A stretch of DNA of 64,000 nucleotides, from positions 372,001 to 436,000 of the forward strand of contig NZ_JAHKKG010000009.1 in assembly GCF_018829635.1 (NCBI RefSeq). Reading direction: 5' to 3'. Under the pieces are notes generated by a model. That model was not told the DNA's origin. It worked only from the letters and a program-made list of their open reading frames with translations, and searched no databases. The DNA is from Paractinoplanes bogorensis. GTDB taxonomy: Bacteria; Actinomycetota; Actinomycetes; Mycobacteriales; Micromonosporaceae. A program made the translations under genes and the position numbers. Shown piece by piece: positions 1,001 through 59,415 of this stretch (the stretch's first letter is position 1; each line of letters starts with the position of its first letter).

Positions 1001-1270
1001 CTAACTGTTTCGGCTGGATGAATCGCGCTGCGTGAGCACCCGGTCGGCCGCCTGCCGCGCGTCACCGTCGAGGTAGTCACGGAAGTTGCCGCCCATGGCC
1101 TGGTCCAGCGCCACGATCAGGTTGTCGACCAGCTCCTGAGCCAGGTCAGGGTCTTCGGCGGCGACCATCCGGAGCCGGGTCGCCAGCTCCATGCCGCGAC
1201 GCTCGCCGGCGTCGCGCTCGTCGATCGCGATGTCGATGTCGGTGTCTTCGAGATGCCCGAAGGTCGTCAT
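1001..1270 (-). CDS. Small acidic protein of unknown function
   Basis: An 89-residue open frame between the menJ-type gene and menG, same strand. The start used is ATG at 1270 (MTTFGHLED); an in-frame start four codons upstream is possible. The N-terminal third is rich in Asp and Glu, the rest is predicted helical, and there is no signal peptide, membrane segment or cysteine. I recognise no domain. Codon third positions look GC-rich like the neighbours, which supports coding. It sits 98 bases upstream of the menJ-type start, so co-transcription is possible. Confidence 0.5.
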   Translation of the reverse strand: MTTFGHLEDTDIDIAIDERDAGERRGMELATRLRMVAAEDPDLAQELVDNLIVALDQAMGGNFRDYLDGDARQAADRVLTQRDSSSRNS

Positions 1271-1368: not shown

Positions 1369-2067
1369 TCAGGCGGCCTTGGTCGCGCGGTGGAGCGCCA
1401 CCACTCCCCCGGTCAAATTGCGCCAGCCGATCCGGCTCCACGGGCCGGCCGCGGCGATCCGGGCGGCCAGCGCCGGCTGGTCGGGCCAGGCCCGGATCGA
1501 CTCGGCGAGATAGACGTACGCCTCCGGGTTGCTCGACACACGGCGGGCGACCTCGGGCAGCGAGCGCATCAGATATTGCATGTAGACGGTGTGGAACGCC
1601 TTGTTGGTCGGGCTGCTGAACTCGCAGATGACCAGCCGCCCGCCGGGCCGGGTGACCCGGGCGAGTTCGCGCAGCGCGCCCTCGACGTCGACGACGTTGC
1701 GGATGGCGAACGAGATGGTGACCGCGTCGAACGTCTCGTCGGCGAACGGCAGCTTCAACGCGTCACCGGCGACCAGCGGGACCTGCGGCCGGACGCGGCG
1801 ACCGGCACGCAGCATGCCGGTGGAGAGGTCGGCGCCGACCGCGAACGCGCCCGAGCGTCCCAACTCGTCGGTCGAGACACCGGTGCCGGCGCCCACGTCG
1901 AGCACCCGCTCACCCGGCCGCAGCCCCAGGGCCGCGCGGGTGGCACGCCGCCAGCCGCGGTCCTGCCCGAAGGCGAGCACGGTGTTGGTCAGGTCGTACC
2001 GCTCGGCCACGCCGTCGAACATCTCGGCGACCTCGTGCGGCTGCTTGTCCAGGTCTGCGCGCGTCAC
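1369..2067 (-). CDS. menG: Demethylmenaquinone methyltransferase MenG (UbiE family)
   Basis: SAM-dependent C-methyltransferase that converts demethylmenaquinone to menaquinone. The 232-residue length is normal for the family. Visible motifs: [13 protein letters not shown] near the N-terminus, SAM motif [10 protein letters not shown], the acidic motif II region GADLSTGM, and the late family motif [11 protein letters not shown]. The GTG at 2067 is chosen because residues upstream do not match the family and the protein then begins [12 protein letters not shown], a typical start. It lies between mqnC and the menJ-type reductase on one strand. Confidence 0.93.
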
Positions 2068-2404: not shown

Positions 2405-3646
2405 TCAGGAAGCTTCCACCAACGGCAACTGGGTGCGGCCGACGCCGCCGCCCGGAATCGCGATCGACGAGAAGTGGGACGTGACACGCTCATCGGTCGG
2501 GTCGTCGGCCGGGGTGTGGTGGACGGCCAGGTGGCGGTAGAGGGTGTCGCGCTGGGCCGGGGTGCGGTCGGCCGTACGGATCATCCAGATCAGGTCGTGC
2601 AGGTTGGACCGGTGCTTGGCGCCGGCCGAGGAGATCACGTTTTCCTCGAGCATGATCGAGCCCAGATCGTCGACGCCCAGGTGCAGCGCGAGCTGGCCGA
2701 CGTCCTTGCCCGTGGTCAGCCAGGACGCCTGCAGGTGGGCGAAGTTGTCGAAGAACAGCCGCGACATGGCCAGGAACCGCAGGTATTCCATGCTCGTGGC
2801 CTGCGTGCGGCCCTTGAGGTGGTTGTTTTCCGGCTGGTAGGTCCACGGAATAAAGGCGCGGAAGCCACCCACCTCATGAGAGGTCTCGATCGCGTCGTCG
2901 CGGTAGCCGTTGGCGACGGCCTTGTCCTGCACGTCGCGGATCATGCGGATGTGCTCGATGCGCTCGGCGTGCGTCTCGCCGGTGCCCATCATCATCGTCG
3001 CGGTCGACGAGAGGCCGTGGCGGTGCGCGACCGTCATCACCTCGAGCCAGCGGGCGCCGCTCTCCTTGAGCGGGGCGATCGCCTTGCGCGGGCGGTCGGG
3101 CAGCATCTCGGCCCCGGCGCCGGCGATCGAGTCGAGCCCGGCCGCCTTGATCCGGATCACGGCGTCTTCGATCGAGACTCCGGAGACCTTGGCCATGTGC
3201 AGGATCTCGGACGGGCCGATCGAGTGGATCGCCAGCTGCGGATACGCCTGCTTGACGGACGAGAAGAGATTTTCGTAGTACTCCACGCCGAAGTCGGGGT
3301 GGTGGCCGCCCTGCAGCATCACCTGGGTGGCGCCGAGATCGACCGCCTCGCCGCAGCGGTGCAGGATCTCTTCCATCGGGTGGGACCAGCCCTCGGCGTG
3401 CTTGGGTGCCCGGAAGAAGGCACAGAATTTGCAGGCCGTGACGCAGACGTTCGTGTAGTTGATGTTGCGATCGATCAGGTACGTGACGATGCCGTCGGGA
3501 TAACGACGGCGGCGCACCGTGTCGGCAGCCTCGGCCAGCGCGTGGAACGGCGCCTCCGTATAGATGAGCAGCGCCTCGTCGGGGGTGATCCGCCCGCCGT
3601 CGGCGGCTCGCTGCAGGATGCTGTCGATCTCCGGGTTCGCCGTCAC
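2405..3646 (-). CDS. mqnC: Cyclic dehypoxanthinyl futalosine synthase MqnC
   Basis: Radical-SAM enzyme of the futalosine route; it cyclises dehypoxanthine futalosine to the spiro intermediate of menaquinone synthesis. The 413 residues are slightly longer than usual. The [4Fe-4S] motif CVTACKFC is intact (Cys68, Cys72, Cys75), followed by LQGGHHPD, SIGPSEI and GAGAEML, all typical of the MqnC/MqnE/CofH group. The start is GTG at 3646. The last 20 or so residues are Gly/Pro-rich and look variable. It is transcribed away from the SNF2 gene, so their promoters share 3647-3809. Confidence 0.94.
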   Translation of the reverse strand: MTANPEIDSILQRAADGGRITPDEALLIYTEAPFHALAEAADTVRRRRYPDGIVTYLIDRNINYTNVCVTACKFCAFFRAPKHAEGWSHPMEEILHRCGEAVDLGATQVMLQGGHHPDFGVEYYENLFSSVKQAYPQLAIHSIGPSEILHMAKVSGVSIEDAVIRIKAAGLDSIAGAGAEMLPDRPRKAIAPLKESGARWLEVMTVAHRHGLSSTATMMMGTGETHAERIEHIRMIRDVQDKAVANGYRDDAIETSHEVGGFRAFIPWTYQPENNHLKGRTQATSMEYLRFLAMSRLFFDNFAHLQASWLTTGKDVGQLALHLGVDDLGSIMLEENVISSAGAKHRSNLHDLIWMIRTADRTPAQRDTLYRHLAVHHTPADDPTDERVTSHFSSIAIPGGGVGRTQLPLVEAS

Positions 3647-13643: not shown

Positions 13644-14309
13644 CAGTCTCGCGATATCCACAGGGCAGGCGCTCGTCGACCGCCAAGATTCGCCCAGCCC
13701 CGTAAAATCCGTGGTGGCCGGGGGCGCCCCCGGTGGAGGGCGGGCTCTGCGCTCGGCCGACCACCAAGACCACTGCGCATGCCGGCTACGCGCGCAAGCC
13801 CACCGGCCAGCAGCGCCGAGGCGGGCAGGCCCAAGTCGCCGCGGTCGGTGCAATGCCGCAGCGACCCGGTGAGCGCCAAGTCGATAACGGCCAGCGCCGC
13901 GAGCCGCCGCCCCGCCTCATCAACCAGCTCGCGACGCCATCCAGCGTCCCGGCGAAGGCCGGTTATGAGCCGACGCGGGCGGGCCAGGCGCCACGGTCGA
14001 TGCGATGCCCGCCTCTGCCCGCTGAGCGCCAAGTCCATAACGGCCCTGCACAGCAGCGCCGCGAGCCGCCGCCCCGCCTCATCAACCAGCTCGCGACGCC
14101 ATCCAGCGTCCCGGCGAAGGCCGGCTGTGAGCCGACGCGGGCGGGCCAGGCGCCACGGTCGATGCGATGCCCGCCTCTGCCCGCTGAGCGCCAAGTCCAT
14201 AACGGCCCTGCACAGCAGCGCCGCTGGCAACGCCATCCAGCGTCCCGGCGGATGCCGGTTAAGAGCGGATGCCGGTCAAGAGCGGACGCCGGTCAAAAGC
14301 GGACGCCGC
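13644..14309 (-). repeat. Tandem repeats derived from the methyltransferase 3' end, plus 17-bp repeats
   Basis: Between the convergent AraC and methyltransferase genes. A diverged copy of the methyltransferase tail (CAGCAGCGCCGA..GCGGGCAGG) lies at 13805-13852. Then come units starting near 13870 (153 bp) and 14023 (162 bp, near-identical to the next unit), and a truncated one from about 14185. Finally three 17-bp units GCGGATGCCGGTTAAGA and variants run from 14248 to 14298 plus a partial, overlapping the methyltransferase stop. The minus-strand frame stays open across the long units, but I regard it as repeat-driven, not a gene. Confidence 0.82.
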
Positions 14310-15171: not shown

Positions 15172-17226
<2,055 letters not shown>

Positions 17227-28300: not shown

Positions 28301-28591
28301 TCACGCGGGCTTTTCGCCGGCCGCGCGGTCACCCTGGGCGGCCGCGTCCTCGTCGCCGGCCAGGGCGGCGCGCAGCCGGTCCTTCTCGGCCTTGCGCCGG
28401 GTGGCCACGCCCACGAGCTGCTCGTTCATCTCGTTGCGCCACTTGGCAAGCAGGAAGTAGGACGCGACGGCCGACACCACGATCGCGATCATGCCGGCGA
28501 CCAGGAGGTTGAGCGGGGCGAAGGACAGCGCGCCGAGAACCAGCACGAACAGCCCCACGCGCCCCAGCGTGTATTTGATGGCCGGACTCAT
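28301..28591 (-). CDS. DUF4229 small membrane protein
   Basis: 96 residues, two membrane segments (about 12-50), then a charged, Ala-rich cytoplasmic tail that includes RNEMNEQLVGVATRRKAEKDRLRAAL. This matches the actinobacterial DUF4229 family of unknown function, often found near menaquinone and cytochrome genes. It lies 11 bases downstream of the next membrane-protein gene. The btu riboswitch follows at once. Confidence 0.82.
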   Translation of the reverse strand: MSPAIKYTLGRVGLFVLVLGALSFAPLNLLVAGMIAIVVSAVASYFLLAKWRNEMNEQLVGVATRRKAEKDRLRAALAGDEDAAAQGDRAAGEKPA

Positions 28592-28602
28592 GGTCTTCCC
28601 CT

Positions 28603-29031
28603 TCACCCCATGCGGTGGCTCAGCCACCGGAGGCCGTAGAACCACACCAGGCAATAGACGGCCGTGAAGGCCAGGGCACCGGCAAAACCGCTGATCAGCG
28701 TCGGGAACTGGTTTGCGGCCAGGCCGGCCAAGGTCATGCCGGCGACCACGGCGAAGCCGATGCCGAGCAGCGCGACCACGATGCGCGAGGCGCCGAAGCC
28801 CTCGGCCCGGAACTCCTCGACGAACAGCCACACCGGCAGGATGATCGCGAGCCATCCGCTCGTGTCGCCGAACTCGGAGACGTGGGTCAGCGACAGGATC
28901 GCCTCGAGGATCAGCACCAGGACGCCACTGACCACCAGCCCGGCCATCGCGGTGCCGAGAAGGTCACCGATGGTGGACAGGCGTCCACTGGGGTCGCGGC
29001 GCGGTCGGCGCTCGCTCTTCGTCTCCGTCAT
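28603..29031 (-). CDS. Four-segment membrane protein of unknown function
   Basis: 142 residues. A charged N-terminus (MTETKSERRPRRDPSGRLS) is followed by four hydrophobic segments and a short basic C-terminus (YGLRWLSHRMG). No motif I recognise. ATG 29031 is chosen over a longer frame that lacks membrane-protein character. Its stop is 11 bases before the DUF4229 start and its own start is 25 bases after the MqnE-like stop, so the three are likely one transcript. Confidence 0.75.
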   Translation of the reverse strand: MTETKSERRPRRDPSGRLSTIGDLLGTAMAGLVVSGVLVLILEAILSLTHVSEFGDTSGWLAIILPVWLFVEEFRAEGFGASRIVVALLGIGFAVVAGMTLAGLAANQFPTLISGFAGALAFTAVYCLVWFYGLRWLSHRMG

Positions 29032-29056: not shown

Positions 29057-29707
29057 TCAGGCCCAGACTTTCTGCGGCTCGCGGCGACGCTCGGCCAACG
29101 ACGGGGCACGATCATGTTCCCGTACGACGTGGTAGCGCGCGTCGCGTCCGACCGGCTGGAAGCCCGCGTCCCAGATCAGCTCGAGCAGGTCGGCACGCTG
29201 CACCGAGTCCGGCGGGCCGGCGTCGTCGGACAGCGGACCGACCAGGTCGTCGGCGCCGAAGTTGAGGGTGAGCTGCGCGACCGACAGTCCGAGCGTGGTC
29301 CAGACACATGTCACGTGGGCCACGTTGTCGAACAGCAGACGCGACACGGCGAAGGTCTTGAGCGATTCGGCCGGCGCGGCCATGGTCGCGTCGTCCTGGT
29401 GGCGCAGCGGAATGAAGGCGGCGAAGCCACCGGTCTCGTCCTGCGTCTCGCGCAGCCGCAGGATCTGGTCGACGCGCTGCGCGGGCTCTTCACCCTGGCC
29501 GAAAATCATGGTGGCGACGTTCTCCGCGTCGTCGTCGGCGGCCGCGAACATCACCCGGTCGCCGTTGAGCTCGGTGCGCCTGTGGTGCGCGAGCCGGCCG
29601 AGCCAGGCGAGGTCGTCACTCGCGTACAGCACTTCGCCGTCGGCGCGGCTCAGTCGCTCCCCGGCGTAGACCTTCGCCTCGAGCTCACGCTTGAGTCCGG
29701 CATCCAT
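29057..29707 (-). CDS. mqnE: MqnE-like protein lacking the radical-SAM core
   Basis: 216 residues. The first 50 (MDAGLKRELEAKVYAGERLS to LNGDRVMF) match the N-terminus of aminofutalosine synthase MqnE. The sequence then jumps through AAADDDAENV to ATMIFGQGEEPAQRVDQILRL, which corresponds to the late barrel, and continues to the family C-terminus (LKTFAVSRLLFDNVAHV, ADLLELIWDAGFQPV). Roughly 130-140 residues are missing, including the CxxxCxxC [4Fe-4S] motif. Two smaller gaps are also present. The frame is clean and starts ATG 29707 with GAAGGAG upstream, so it is expressed as a protein. It cannot do radical-SAM chemistry as read. Confidence 0.85.
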   Translation of the reverse strand: MDAGLKRELEAKVYAGERLSRADGEVLYASDDLAWLGRLAHHRRTELNGDRVMFAAADDDAENVATMIFGQGEEPAQRVDQILRLRETQDETGGFAAFIPLRHQDDATMAAPAESLKTFAVSRLLFDNVAHVTCVWTTLGLSVAQLTLNFGADDLVGPLSDDAGPPDSVQRADLLELIWDAGFQPVGRDARYHVVREHDRAPSLAERRREPQKVWA

Positions 29708-29923
29708 CTGCGGCGCTCCTTCATCCCCGGCAACGTCTCCGAGCGTACGGGCAAGCCTTTGTGATCTTGAAAGAGCGCTCGCGGTCGGGGCCCAGGTCAC
29801 GCGGTTGTTGGCCGAATTCCCAGGCTTCTTTCATCTTCGATCAATCGACAGGCGTGTAAGGAGTGAGGTAAGTCTTTAGGGGGAACGGCAGCGACACACG
29901 ATGTCGCGGCGGACGGGGAGCAG

Positions 29924-31609
29924 ATGGCGACAGCACGAGTTGGGGTCCAGCGGTCACGCAGCGCGCGCCCATGGTGGCGCCCTGTGGTGTTCTCTGCTGT
30001 CGCCGCCACCATCGCCGCCCTGTTCCAGCCCGTCCCCGCCTTCGCCGACCCGGCCGCCGCCCCGCAAGACACCTTCAGCGTCGCCGTTCCCGACGTCGGC
30101 TCCCGGCCGATGCCCCTGGGCACGCTGGCCATGCCGGGGCAGAAGGCCGCGACGCCCACCCCGACCACCTCGCTCACCGGCGTCGCCACCAGCCCGGTCC
30201 TGCAGCAGATCGAAAAGGGTCGCAACGAGATCTCGACCCTGGGCGACGAGCTGATCCAGCTCGGGCAGGATCGCGACCTCGCCCGTGACCAGCAGACCGC
30301 GGCCAAGCTGAAATACGAGCAGGCGACCGAGGCCCTGCGGCAGGCGCAGACCGCCGCCGCCGAGGCCGCTGCCCAGTCCGTGGTCGACGCCGCCGCGGCT
30401 CCTCCCGGCGGGCTCGGCGGTCTCTCCGACCTCGGCGACCTCGCCCGCCTGCAGCGCGGCGACGGCACCCAGCAGGCCGTGGCCCGCCAGATCCAGCTGG
30501 CTCAGATCAACTCGCAGCTCGCCCTCGACGAGCAGGCGCTGAGCACCGATCGCTACAACCAGTCGGCGACGAAGTACAACCAGCTCAACAGCAAGCTGAG
30601 CACCAAGCAGGCAGCCCAGCAGCGCCTCGAGCTGGCGCACACCGACGAGATCGCCGCCGCCGAGGCGAGCCAGGCCGGGGTCGACAGCGCGCTCGGCGCG
30701 GGCTTCCTGGCCGGCGCCGAGGCCGGTCGTGGCGCCGACGCCCGGGCCATCAACGCGCTCAAATACGCCCTGGCTCAGCGCGGCGACCCCTACGTCTGGT
30801 CCGAGGAAGGCCCGGACGAATACGACTGCTCCGGTCTCATGTACGCGGCATACCGCTCGGTCGGCTTCCCGCTCACCCGCGTCTCCCGCGACCAGTACTG
30901 GCAGACCCGCAACAAGGTCGTGTCGCGCTACTCGCTGCTCCCCGGCGACCTGCTGTTCTTCAGCTACACGAACAGCTGGAAGGGCATTCACCACGTCGCC
31001 ATGTACGCCGGCAACGGCATGATGGTCGAGGCCCCGCGCACCGGCCTCAACGTGCGGCTGACCCCGGTCCGGTGGTCGCGGCTCTTCCAGGCCACCCGCA
31101 TCTTCGGCTCGATCGAGGGCGTCGTCCCCGGCCCCGAGCTGGGCCAGCCCGACCCCGACCCGACCGGCGGCAACCCGGCGCAGCCCACATTGCCGACGAG
31201 GCCGACCACGCCTCCGGCGACCACAAAGCCGCCGACCACTCCGCCGGCCACCACAAAGCCGCCGACCACCCCACCGGCCACCACAAAGCCGCCGACCACC
31301 CCACCGGCCACCACAAAGCCGCCGACCACCACTCCACCCGCCACGACTCCACCGGCGACCACGCCGCCCGCGACCACGCCGCCGGCCACCACCCCGCCCG
31401 CGACCACGGCCCCGCCGGTCGCGACGCAGCCGCCGGCCACGACGCCGACGACCGGTGGGTCGGGTTCGGGCGGCAGCCCGTCCGGCGGCGGGTCCAACTC
31501 GGCCGGTGCCGGTTCCTCGGCGGCCAACACGCCGAGCGGCACGACCAGCTCGGCCAACGCCACCGAATCCAAGACCCAGTCCGCCTCGGCGTCCGCTTCC
31601 GGCAACTGA
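29924..31609 (+). CDS. Secreted NlpC/P60 peptidoglycan hydrolase
   Basis: 561 residues. Signal peptide 1-41 (ending AFA), then a coiled-coil region (about 95-255), then an NlpC/P60 cysteine peptidase domain (about 270-385) with Cys302 in YDCSGLMYAAY and His357 in GIHHVAMYAG. It cleaves cell-wall stem peptides. The C-terminal 160 residues are a Pro/Thr tail with four PPATTK/PPTT units and several PPATT units, then Ser/Gly-rich sequence. ATG 29924 has GGGGAG upstream. Coiled coil plus NlpC/P60 is the RipA/RpfB-partner type layout for division or growth. Confidence 0.9.
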   Translation: MATARVGVQRSRSARPWWRPVVFSAVAATIAALFQPVPAFADPAAAPQDTFSVAVPDVGSRPMPLGTLAMPGQKAATPTPTTSLTGVATSPVLQQIEKGRNEISTLGDELIQLGQDRDLARDQQTAAKLKYEQATEALRQAQTAAAEAAAQSVVDAAAAPPGGLGGLSDLGDLARLQRGDGTQQAVARQIQLAQINSQLALDEQALSTDRYNQSATKYNQLNSKLSTKQAAQQRLELAHTDEIAAAEASQAGVDSALGAGFLAGAEAGRGADARAINALKYALAQRGDPYVWSEEGPDEYDCSGLMYAAYRSVGFPLTRVSRDQYWQTRNKVVSRYSLLPGDLLFFSYTNSWKGIHHVAMYAGNGMMVEAPRTGLNVRLTPVRWSRLFQATRIFGSIEGVVPGPELGQPDPDPTGGNPAQPTLPTRPTTPPATTKPPTTPPATTKPPTTPPATTKPPTTPPATTKPPTTTPPATTPPATTPPATTPPATTPPATTAPPVATQPPATTPTTGGSGSGGSPSGGGSNSAGAGSSAANTPSGTTSSANATESKTQSASASASGN

Positions 31610-38650: not shown

Positions 38651-38926
38651 GTGGACACTGGAGATCGTCTGCTGACGCCAGGCGAGGTGGCCGCGCTGTT
38701 CCGCGTCGACCCGAAGACGGTCACGCGATGGGCCGCCGCCGGACGTATCGGCAGCATTCGCACGCCAGGTGGTCACCGCCGCTTCCGTGAATCCGAGGTC
38801 CGAGCGTTGCTGGAAGGCGACGGCGTGGTCGAGGAAATGCGTGAGGACGATGCCGCCAACCGCCCACGTAATTCCGGCCCGAGCAATCCGGGCCTGGGTT
38901 ACGGACCGCCCAACGGGTTGCGCTGA
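38651..38926 (+). CDS. bldC: BldC-family MerR-type developmental regulator
   Basis: 91 residues. The first 65 match Streptomyces BldC closely: LLTPGEVAALFRVDPKTVTRWA, then SIRTPGGHRRFRESEVRALL. BldC binds DNA head-to-tail and holds back or promotes development in sporulating actinobacteria. This copy has an extra 20-25 residue Gly/Pro/Asn tail. GTG 38651 has a strong GAGGAGG just upstream. The 3' end overlaps convergent ubiX by 28 bases. Confidence 0.9.
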   Translation: MDTGDRLLTPGEVAALFRVDPKTVTRWAAAGRIGSIRTPGGHRRFRESEVRALLEGDGVVEEMREDDAANRPRNSGPSNPGLGYGPPNGLR

Positions 38927-39537
38927 GCGTTCAGCTCGCCCTTCCAGCGGGTGAGGAGCGTGTGCTCCACACCGAGCGCGTCCAGCGCCTTGCCCGCGAT
39001 GAAGTCGATGAGTTGCTGCGCTGTCGCCTGCGCCCCGGAGCCGTAGAAGCCCGGGCTTGCAGGCAGAACGACCGCTCCGGCGTCGTGCAGGGCGATCAGG
39101 TGCTCCAGGTGACTGCGAGTGACCGGCGTTTCCCGCGGCACGATGACTGTGCGTCGACGCTCTTTGAGGTTGACCTCGGCCGCGCGCTGGAGCAGATCTT
39201 TGGACAGCCCGATCGCTATGCCGGCGCACGCAGCCGTGCTGGCGGGCACCACGATCATGCCCTTCGCCGGGTATGACCCACTGCTGGGACCGGCGGCCAG
39301 ATCGGCCGCCGGCCAGTAGGTCAGGTCGCCCAGATCGCGGCCCAGCCATGCGCCGACGTCGTCCTTCCAATGCGCATCCCGTACGGTCGCACCGGTCTCG
39401 TCGAGAATCGTCAGCCGGGCGGCTTTCGAGATGACGAGGTCGACGGCCTCACCGGCGTCCAGCAGTCCGCTGAGCACGGCACGGGCGTACGGCGTACCGG
39501 AAGCTCCTGAGACACCCACGACCCACGGTTCACGCAT
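38899..39537 (-). CDS. ubiX: UbiX-type flavin prenyltransferase
   Basis: 212 residues. It attaches dimethylallyl phosphate to FMN to make the prenyl-FMN cofactor of UbiD decarboxylases. Visible: VVGVSGASGTPYARAVL, the serine-rich phosphate region VPASTAACAGIAIGLS, and RRTVIVPRETPVTRSHLEHL. ATG 39537. Its partner UbiD is 2.6 kb upstream on the same strand, which fits a joint role in the decarboxylation step of the futalosine route. Confidence 0.92.
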   Translation of the reverse strand: MREPWVVGVSGASGTPYARAVLSGLLDAGEAVDLVISKAARLTILDETGATVRDAHWKDDVGAWLGRDLGDLTYWPAADLAAGPSSGSYPAKGMIVVPASTAACAGIAIGLSKDLLQRAAEVNLKERRRTVIVPRETPVTRSHLEHLIALHDAGAVVLPASPGFYGSGAQATAQQLIDFIAGKALDALGVEHTLLTRWKGELNAQRNPLGGP

Positions 39538-41289: not shown

Positions 41290-42186
41290 TTACAGCAGCA
41301 TCAGGTCGAGCAGGGCGAACAGGAACAGCGCGATGCCGACAAAGCCGTTGGCCGTGAAGAAGGCGCGGTTGACCTTGGACAGGTCGTTCGGCGTGACCAC
41401 GATGTGCTGGTAGACGAAGGCGGCCGCGGTCAGGAGCAGACCGATCCACCACAGCCAGCCGAGGCCGACGAGCTGGCCGAACCACACGAACAGCGCGAAC
41501 GTCACCACGTGGGTCGCGGTCGAGATGTGCAGCGCCGTGCGGACGCCGAACCGGGCCGGGGTCGAGTGCACGCCGATCCGGCGGTCGACGTCGACATCCT
41601 GGCAGGCGTAGATGATGTCGAACCCGCCGATCCAGAGGCCGACCGCGACGCCGAGCAGCCAGGCCGGGCCCGAACCGTCGAACGTGCCGGTCATCGCCAG
41701 CCAGGCACCGACCGGGGCCACCGCCTGGGCCAGTGCGAGCACGTAATGCGGGAAGTTGGTGAACCGCTTGGCGTACGGATAGATCACCAGCGGGATCACG
41801 GCCAGCGGCGACAGCACCAGGCAGAGCGGGTTGAGCAGCCCGGCCGCCACGAACAGGACGACCAGCGAGATCGCCGCGCCCGTCCACGCCGTCCGCAGGC
41901 TGACCGCGCCGGTGACGAGCTCGCGGTTCTGCGTCCGCGGGTTGAGGGCGTCGATCTTGCGGTCGAGGATGCGGTTGGCGGCCATGGCGAACGTGCGGCC
42001 GGACACCATCGCGACCGTCACCAGCAGCAGGTCGATCCAGTGGATGCCGGTGTCGAGGCGGTCGAGCGCGACCAGCGCCGACAGGTAGGCGAACGGCAGC
42101 GCGAACACCGAGTGCTCGATGGCGACCAGGCGCAGGAACGCCTTGACCTTGCCCGGTTTCTCGGGGACTTCGGCGATCGCCGTCAT
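41290..42186 (-). CDS. mqnP: UbiA-type prenyltransferase MqnP
   Basis: 298-residue integral membrane prenyltransferase with about nine membrane segments. The first aspartate-rich motif appears as NRILDRKIDALNPRT (N/DxxxD type), the second as YACQDVDVDRRIGVHS. In the futalosine route it transfers the polyprenyl chain to the naphthoate ring. Start ATG 42186 overlaps the UbiD stop by four bases, and UbiX is nearby, which supports MqnP over other UbiA family members. Confidence 0.9.
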   Translation of the reverse strand: MTAIAEVPEKPGKVKAFLRLVAIEHSVFALPFAYLSALVALDRLDTGIHWIDLLLVTVAMVSGRTFAMAANRILDRKIDALNPRTQNRELVTGAVSLRTAWTGAAISLVVLFVAAGLLNPLCLVLSPLAVIPLVIYPYAKRFTNFPHYVLALAQAVAPVGAWLAMTGTFDGSGPAWLLGVAVGLWIGGFDIIYACQDVDVDRRIGVHSTPARFGVRTALHISTATHVVTFALFVWFGQLVGLGWLWWIGLLLTAAAFVYQHIVVTPNDLSKVNRAFFTANGFVGIALFLFALLDLMLL

Positions 42187-51661: not shown

Positions 51662-56068
<4,407 letters not shown>

Positions 56069-58958: not shown

Positions 58959-58984
58959 GCCACCGCAGCGCGCGCGTAAAGCGG

Positions 58985-59400
58985 CAGCCCCGCGTACCAG
59001 CAGCCCCGCGAACCGGCAGCCTCGCGTACGAGCAGCCCCGCGAACCAGCAGCCCCGCGAACCGGCAGGCTCGCACGTCCGCGGGCTCGAGCGGCACCACC
59101 GGACCGGCGGCCTACGGCACGCTGCTCGAACGGGTCGCCCGGGTCGAACCGGCAGCACCGCGAACCGGCAGCCCCGCGAACCGCGCAGGCTCGCACGTCC
59201 GCGGGCTCGCGTACCGGCAAGCTCGCGCGTCCGCGGGCTAGCACGTCCGCAAGCTCGCGAACCGGCAAGCTCGCGAACCGGCAAGCTCGCGAACCGGCAA
59301 GCTCGCGAACCGGCAAGCTCGCGAACCGGCAAGCTCGCGCGTCCGCGGGCTCGCACATCCGCGGGCTCGCGAACCGGCAAGCTCGCACATCGGCGGGCTC
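58985..59400. repeat. Minisatellite of 15-16-bp units between two convergent genes
   Basis: Five perfect 16-bp copies of GCAAGCTCGCGAACCG at 59249-59328 plus a ten-base partial. Around them is about 330 bases of variants, such as GCAGCCCCGCGAACCG and GCTCGCGCGTCCGCGG. No unique spacers, so it is not CRISPR. The minus-strand frame stays open because 16 bp repeats give a 16-residue periodic peptide; I do not take it as a gene. Confidence 0.9.
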
Positions 59401-59415
59401 GGCGCACCGCGCCCG

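Follow-up and report, generated by a model that had tools for sequence, protein, structure and literature searches.

We show here that the mqnE gene of Paractinoplanes bogorensis has lost its radical-SAM core, and that core-less MqnE forms of this kind are real, recur across the genus and family, and are unexplained by the enzymes found. MqnE makes aminofutalosine from SAM and the product of MqnA and, to our knowledge, is the only known aminofutalosine synthase. The core is absent from the short gene, the genome search yielded no other MqnE, and both the remnant and the pathway genes MqnA and MqnC are under coding constraint. The explanation that we favour, and to which we give about an even chance, is that an MqnE orthologue has turned into a pseudoenzyme, its catalysis having been replaced by another enzyme while the remnant serves as a non-catalytic partner. 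All positions below, unless another genome is named, refer to the window, the whole 64,000-nucleotide stretch of P. bogorensis DNA that was analysed.

The short gene is an open frame of 216 residues on the minus strand, from the ATG at 29707 to the TGA at 29057 (29057..29707; frame translation, NCBIfam and alignment), and AAGGAG, a likely ribosome-binding site by sequence reading, stands 8 nt before the ATG (29716..29721, minus strand). The clean frame described in the original prediction, which left the strand unstated, was therefore found intact. Its best NCBIfam match was the MqnE profile TIGR03700, with 162.3 bits for the whole protein (E 1.4e-47), below the curated MqnE cut-off of 434.55 bits. 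In the genome search this match was split: 34.2 bits came from positions 2-48 of the 351-position profile and 126.2 bits from positions 204-350, with positions 49-203 unmatched; CofH_C was the sole Pfam match. The E value, together with the recurrence of the short form in other genomes, argues that the frame is beyond chance.

Alignment with full-length congeners placed one large gap of ~150 residues after residue 54, where a 9-residue linker stands instead, so that CxxxCxxC is missing together with the barrel's first half. Two smaller gaps follow, one after the RYQ position (the RYQHDF loop) and one at EYKITHD (the KITHD loop). MqnE-like ends, a lost CxxxCxxC and two further small gaps had all been predicted, and only the size of the main gap, given then as 130-140 residues, needs correction. 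The protein can be divided on the minus strand into a retained N-terminal segment (residues 1-54; 29546..29707), which is the most constrained part by pN/pS; a variable linker (residues 55-63; 29519..29545) that replaces the ~150 core residues including CxxxCxxC, as judged by alignment; and a retained C-terminal part (residues 64-216; 29060..29518; Pfam and alignment) that includes the CofH_C region. Neither the sequence nor the alignment of the 216-aa protein contains the CxxxCxxC [4Fe-4S]-SAM motif. Against the full forms displayed, HIVNG, TATE, GGGAE, RYQHDF and KITHD are lost and GHIEE is changed; in full-length congeners we take these motifs to be active-site loops. On the features tested, the protein thus fails as an MqnE enzyme, while its orthology holds.

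The evidence for orthology is positional. Two small genes lie downstream on the minus strand, one of 142 aa that is membrane-protein-like by eye (28603..29031) and one of ~100 aa (28301..28606) that we take to be DUF4229-like, neither with an NCBIfam match; the divergent neighbour (29924..31609, plus strand) is presumably an NlpC/P60-type secreted protein. By tblastn, the 142-aa neighbour lies within 4 kb of mqnE in 67/67 genomes of the genus, the ~100-aa neighbour was likewise found in 67/67, and the divergent one in 64/67. The short gene thus shares its neighbours with full-length mqnE in the genus, marking an orthologous locus, and since it sits in MqnE's own place with no other MqnE in the genome, it is an orthologue and not the paralogue that had been proposed. 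Elsewhere in the window, a 162-bp unit at 13892-14224, in a gap between called genes, occurs about twice in tandem (98% matches), and some seven copies of a 276-bp unit lie at 53698-55631 inside a long minus-strand gene (51662-56068) that we take to be histidine-kinase-like, the units being probably HAMP-type. Units of 16 and 48 bp are repeated in tandem at 58984-59409, at the end of a gene that is presumably FAD-linked-oxidase-like.

The genus, here Actinoplanes sensu GTDB, comprises 67 genomes (the window genome being G000), and all 67 have a match. The full-length form of 389 aa with CxxxCxxC is present in 52, and KITHD in 52/52 of these; 13 have only a core-less form of 183-230 aa (the length for G002 being taken from an inner ATG, its first called start lying too far upstream), and 2 are intermediate. 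Of the intermediates, G069 (357 aa) keeps CxxxCxxC, has lost loops and scores 343.5 bits, below the cut-off, and the divergent G012 (385 aa) scores 456 bits, above it. Across the family, MqnE exceeds the cut-off in 312/354 genomes. The other 42 include 14 from the genus (the 13 core-less ones and G069) and 28 from outside it; 27 of these 28 were searched with the short protein alongside five full-length controls (32 genomes), G124, which is 69% complete and gave no match, being left out. Short core-less forms came from 17 genomes in six other genera: g25 (4), g32 (5), g43 (1), g52 (5 of 6, the member G345 giving search fragments only and not counted among the extracted forms), g58 (1) and g63 (1). 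Longer forms without CxxxCxxC occur in G360 (333 aa), G361 (396 aa) and G366 (355 aa); G356, G357 and G359 have the motif and score below the cut-off; G370 (273 aa) has an odd CPQRCAFC; and G161 and G204, each in several hundred contigs, gave matches at the level of MqnC or CofGH only. Core-less or eroding forms are thus found in eight other genera of the family, and lengths are graded, with examples of 418, 396, 357, 333, 230, 216, 183 and 165 aa.

How often the core was lost was read from a FastTree tree built on 10,682 columns from 30 gene families that neighbour the locus (21 genomes, without G061 and G065). In this tree the full-length G078 is nested in a core-less group (supports 1.00), the full-length G082 stands beside the core-less G025 (support 1.00), and the full-length G076 stands beside the core-less G085 with the core-less G075 outside (support 0.94). 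If loss is irreversible, six losses are needed on this tree and five on a 66-genome tree, in which several of the relevant nodes have low support, making the 21-genome tree the better one. The trees therefore suggest that the core was deleted independently in several lineages; three losses would suffice if the full-length genes of G078 and G076 were instead regained by transfer. In the alignment, the limits of the deletion differ among core-less groups, which also favours separate origins. By DNA identity, the remnants of G034 and G075 are near full-length genes from the same region of the tree as themselves, but the N-terminal codons of G000 tie between G084, from its own region, and G087, from another, more distant one; these identities are suggestive at best of separate origins, and decide neither origins nor transfer. 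The original prediction had judged the short form to be old and kept rather than a recent deletion. This agrees with short forms that have been maintained over a long time and are shared within groups; comparison with relatives shows in addition that they arose repeatedly and that parts of them evolve fast.

What is kept is much the same in each case. When 30 core-less proteins (13 from the genus and 17 from the six other genera; 165-258 aa) were aligned to full forms, full-length residues 1-59, 211-218, 274-323 and 342-388 were retained in at least 90% of them, and positions 60-155, 163-208 and 259-270 were absent from at least 90%; some core-less lineages are without b5-b6 altogether. The lost part is thus the segment of the iron-sulfur motif plus loops, and the kept part the N-terminal helical segment plus the C-terminal part. 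Selection on these parts was gauged by pN/pS from pairwise, uncorrected Nei-Gojobori counts on related sequences, not from a codon model; so read, the 13 core-less genes of the genus vs the 52 full ones gave 0.227 vs 0.154 over codons 1-53, 0.790 vs 0.032 over b5-b6, which is close to neutral in the core-less genes, and 0.484 vs 0.160 over the C block, which is relaxed in them. Differences at codon positions 1/2/3 in the core-less genes were 0.099/0.101/0.343 for codons 1-53, 0.341/0.297/0.449 for b5-b6 and 0.211/0.170/0.333 for the C block. No internal stop was found in any of the 13 core-less genus matches, all 13 frames are whole codons, and 65 of the 216 positions are identical in 13/13 genomes. 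The pN/pS values, the codon-position pattern and the open frames indicate clear retention of the N-terminal part, moderate retention of the C-terminal part and hardly any of the middle. We would therefore describe the remnant as a pseudoenzyme under selection, in which the catalytic motif is lost and coding constraint persists, strong only in the N-terminal part; the nearly neutral b5-b6 and the relaxed C block show that part of the remnant is decaying.

The remnant is also predicted to fold. The best AlphaFold model of the window protein had a mean pLDDT of 77.5 (five runs, 62.5-77.5) and a pTM of 0.75, with pLDDT at ~93 over residues 1-40 and 84 over residues 41-50, and its N-terminal segment forms three helices and a strand. 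The short form of A. lutulentus (G075), a separate loss, was modelled with the same N-terminal helices but with lower confidence (mean pLDDT 69.9, pTM 0.69). Foldseek placed four MqnE chains of 6xig/6xi9 on top (E 3e-12 to 1e-11), the best being 6xig with a TM-score of 0.76 by query length.

The main rival to the replacement-and-partner explanation is a slow in-frame relic, in which MqnE function has been lost and the gene erodes with nothing kept on purpose. The nearly neutral b5-b6, the relaxed C block and the gradation in length from 418 to 165 aa are what such erosion would leave. However, the absence of internal stops and the whole-codon frames in 13/13 genus matches, the strong constraint on codons 1-53 with moderate constraint on the C block, and the survival of the same end segments in 30 proteins from seven genera all speak against it. 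Erosion explains the relaxed middle, but neither the constrained N-terminus nor the ends shared by seven genera, and we consider it unlikely, though it has to be taken seriously.

The original prediction had reasoned that the pathway needs a real MqnE, to be sought elsewhere in the genome. In the P. bogorensis genome (10.19 Mb in 40 contigs, with an estimated completeness of 100%), the TIGR03700 profile search found no locus over the MqnE cut-off, only MqnC, a CofGH fusion and the short gene, and a full-length MqnE was equally missing from the 12 further core-less genus genomes. At E<=10, TIGR03700 exceeded its cut-off in 0/13 core-less genus genomes, so that a hidden full-length MqnE was rejected for 13/13; the same search gave 9/23 genomes over the cut-off, that is 8/8 full-length ones plus G012. 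With the full-length MqnE missing from the genome, the finding becomes a missing-enzyme problem.

Other genes of the futalosine pathway are in place. MqnC (2405..3646) is intact, with 460.6 bits vs a cut-off of 428.1, and NCBIfam also identified the demethylmenaquinone methyltransferase MenG (1369..2067), a UbiX-family flavin prenyltransferase (38899..39537; 192 of 212 aa scanned), the prenyltransferase MqnP (41290..42186) and the UbiD-type menaquinone decarboxylase (TIGR03701; 42183..43643), all on the minus strand. The pathway genes predicted for the window were thus recovered, with the qualification that MqnA (15172..16023, minus strand) was assigned by PF02621 and had no NCBIfam match. MqnD is inferred from a second PF02621 locus outside the window (G000:C40:281303). 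Two PF02621 loci, MqnA and the one taken as MqnD, were present in 23/23 genomes, as was an MqnC-type locus. In 13 core-less and 12 full genomes (the two intermediates being left out), pN/pS was 0.167 vs 0.193 for MqnC and 0.172 vs 0.223 for MqnA, so the constraint on both genes is no weaker in core-less genomes than in full ones. A switch to the classical Men route was rejected, as MenB was over its cut-off in 0/36 genomes (including 8/13 core-less) and MenD in 0/37 (including 13/13 core-less), with weaker matches below the cut-off in all. With no other MqnE, constrained MqnA and MqnC, and no MenB or MenD, the aminofutalosine step in core-less genomes is without a visible enzyme. MK-9(H4) or MK-9(H6) is reported to be the predominant menaquinone of the genus (PMC6113628), and MK-9(H4) is given for A. 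missouriensis (PMC3569393); for the core-less species themselves, no report of menaquinone was found in the open literature.

A gap between constrained pathway genes is most simply filled by another enzyme, through which core-less strains would make menaquinone. In the ~30 kb on each side of the locus (11 core-less, 2 intermediate and 8 full genomes, G012 without its upstream side), no gene family occurred in every core-less genome while missing from every full one, and a replacement in the local cluster was rejected because no family was clearly gained there. The most skewed families were an 89-aa frame (11/11 core-less vs 3/8 full) and methyltransferase-like and AraC-like genes, so labelled by eye (each 8/11 vs 2/8). 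The 89-aa frame (window 1001-1270, minus strand) lies near MqnC and MenG and was called in 2/2 intermediates as well; its distribution may be a gene-calling effect. PF04055 matches numbered 19, 29, 22, 21 and 16 in five core-less Actinoplanes genomes and 16, 25, 19, 23 and 15 in five core-less genomes of other genera, the latter as positions and frame lengths only. The 16 matches of G026 come from 15 proteins: NCBIfam named five (AmcB, an unclassified SPASM protein, MSMEG_0568, Rv2578c and TIGR03960), MqnC and CofGH are also among them, and eight we take to be MoaA (two), MiaB, HemW, RimO, BioB, LipA and RlmN. Five further radical-SAM proteins of G000 and G085 were scanned with NCBIfam. In this partial survey by eye, with proteins named for G026 and some of G000 and G085, no shared new radical-SAM candidate was evident, which may still be compatible with a non-canonical or distant replacement enzyme. 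The Rv2578c-family protein of G026 (~615 aa; L309:76-1923) matches an intein-containing model with 859 bits vs a cut-off of 700, and a protein similar by sequence occurs in G000 (L319). Ravcheev and Thiele (PMC4746308), in the part of their text accessible to us, propose non-orthologous replacements in quinone pathways, including for genomes without mqnD, and in that part none appears for MqnE. Among the matches listed in a mostly open literature, no title concerned MqnE loss in the Micromonosporaceae.

Instead of a separate enzyme, MqnC itself might perform both radical-SAM steps with the MqnE remnant as heteromeric partner, like the trypanosome prozymes; an ancestral MqnC that already had both activities would have made the MqnE core redundant and open to repeated loss. 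All 13 core-less genus genomes have an MqnC under constraint, and in the four g25 genomes an MqnC-type locus is the sole TIGR03700 match at E<=1e-20, with no CofGH among the two matches of each. However, no column of the MqnC alignment separates the 13 core-less from 12 full genomes, so that nothing in MqnC hints at a new activity; a change of MqnC function was rejected on this ground, and we regard the bifunctional enzyme as rather improbable.

Still less probable, in our estimate, is a moonlighting role that is unrelated to menaquinone and also performed by full-length MqnE, the core having become free to go once catalysis was replaced. That the two small genes and the NlpC/P60-type gene stay linked to mqnE throughout the genus, and in some of the other genera, would fit such a role. 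However, the same linkage exists beside full-length mqnE and so singles out no role, and a search of the 1.5-kb flanks in G356, G358 and G359 found none of these neighbours. An assembly or sequencing artefact in the P. bogorensis genome, for which nothing speaks beyond the in-frame gap itself, is scarcely conceivable, and assembly error was ruled out by the recurrence of core-less forms in 13 independently assembled genus genomes, three of them single-contig (G025, G060, G085), and in six other genera too.

Compared with characterised MqnE (TIGR03700, SCO4494; PDB 6xi9/6xig), the short protein has the same locus, N-terminal helices and C-terminal CofH_C region, but is without CxxxCxxC, ~150 core residues and the active-site loops. 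MqnC (TIGR03699) and CofH (TIGR03551) belong to the same subfamily and match the same C-terminal stretch, but with 108 and 66 bits, respectively, vs 162 bits for MqnE, and the genome has its own MqnC and CofGH. A sister radical-SAM protein has likewise lost its CxxxCxxC segment: the CofH-like protein of G085 (L269:4737-5684, minus strand; 315 aa) and G075 (L271:5059-6045, plus strand; 328 aa) still matches the CofH profile from position 73-74 onwards, through to its end, and lies in another gene cluster, with genes that we take to be flavin-monooxygenase-like, flavin-oxidoreductase-like and crotonase-like. The CofG proteins of G085 and G075 (405 and 428 aa as called) lack the CofH half to which CofG is usually joined, and the searches matched no further CofH; in these two genomes a CofH for F420 synthesis thus also seems to be missing. 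The trypanosomatid prozymes of AdoMetDC and DHS are described as catalytically dead paralogues kept for a live partner (PMC5201418, PMC3663545, PMC6221367). They may offer a comparison in working principle only: in P. bogorensis no live MqnE paralogue was found, and the partner role is putative.

Under the replacement-and-partner explanation, another enzyme would make aminofutalosine and MqnE catalysis would have become dispensable in this actinomycete family. The radical-SAM core and the active-site loops would then have been deleted in frame, independently in several lineages, while selection would have maintained the N-terminal helical segment and the C-terminal part. The remnant would most likely serve the other futalosine-pathway enzymes as a scaffold or activator, its two ends probably contacting other enzymes of the pathway; the possible non-catalytic role mentioned in the original prediction fits these data. 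A broader proposal, to which we give somewhat less than an even chance, is that the family has a second route to aminofutalosine, through either a new enzyme or an MqnC that depends on the MqnE remnant as its partner, and that MqnE, thus relieved of catalysis, has been reduced convergently to a minimal non-catalytic subunit of the futalosine machinery.

Lineages that have the steps before and after MqnE but have its catalytic core cut out form a natural experiment in a pathway that has been considered as a drug target in other bacteria. They lead one to expect either an enzyme yet to be discovered or an MqnC with both activities. Repeated evolution would, at the same time, have isolated the part of MqnE that has a non-catalytic job, and the graded series of lengths in the family makes both the replacement and the role of the remnant directly testable.
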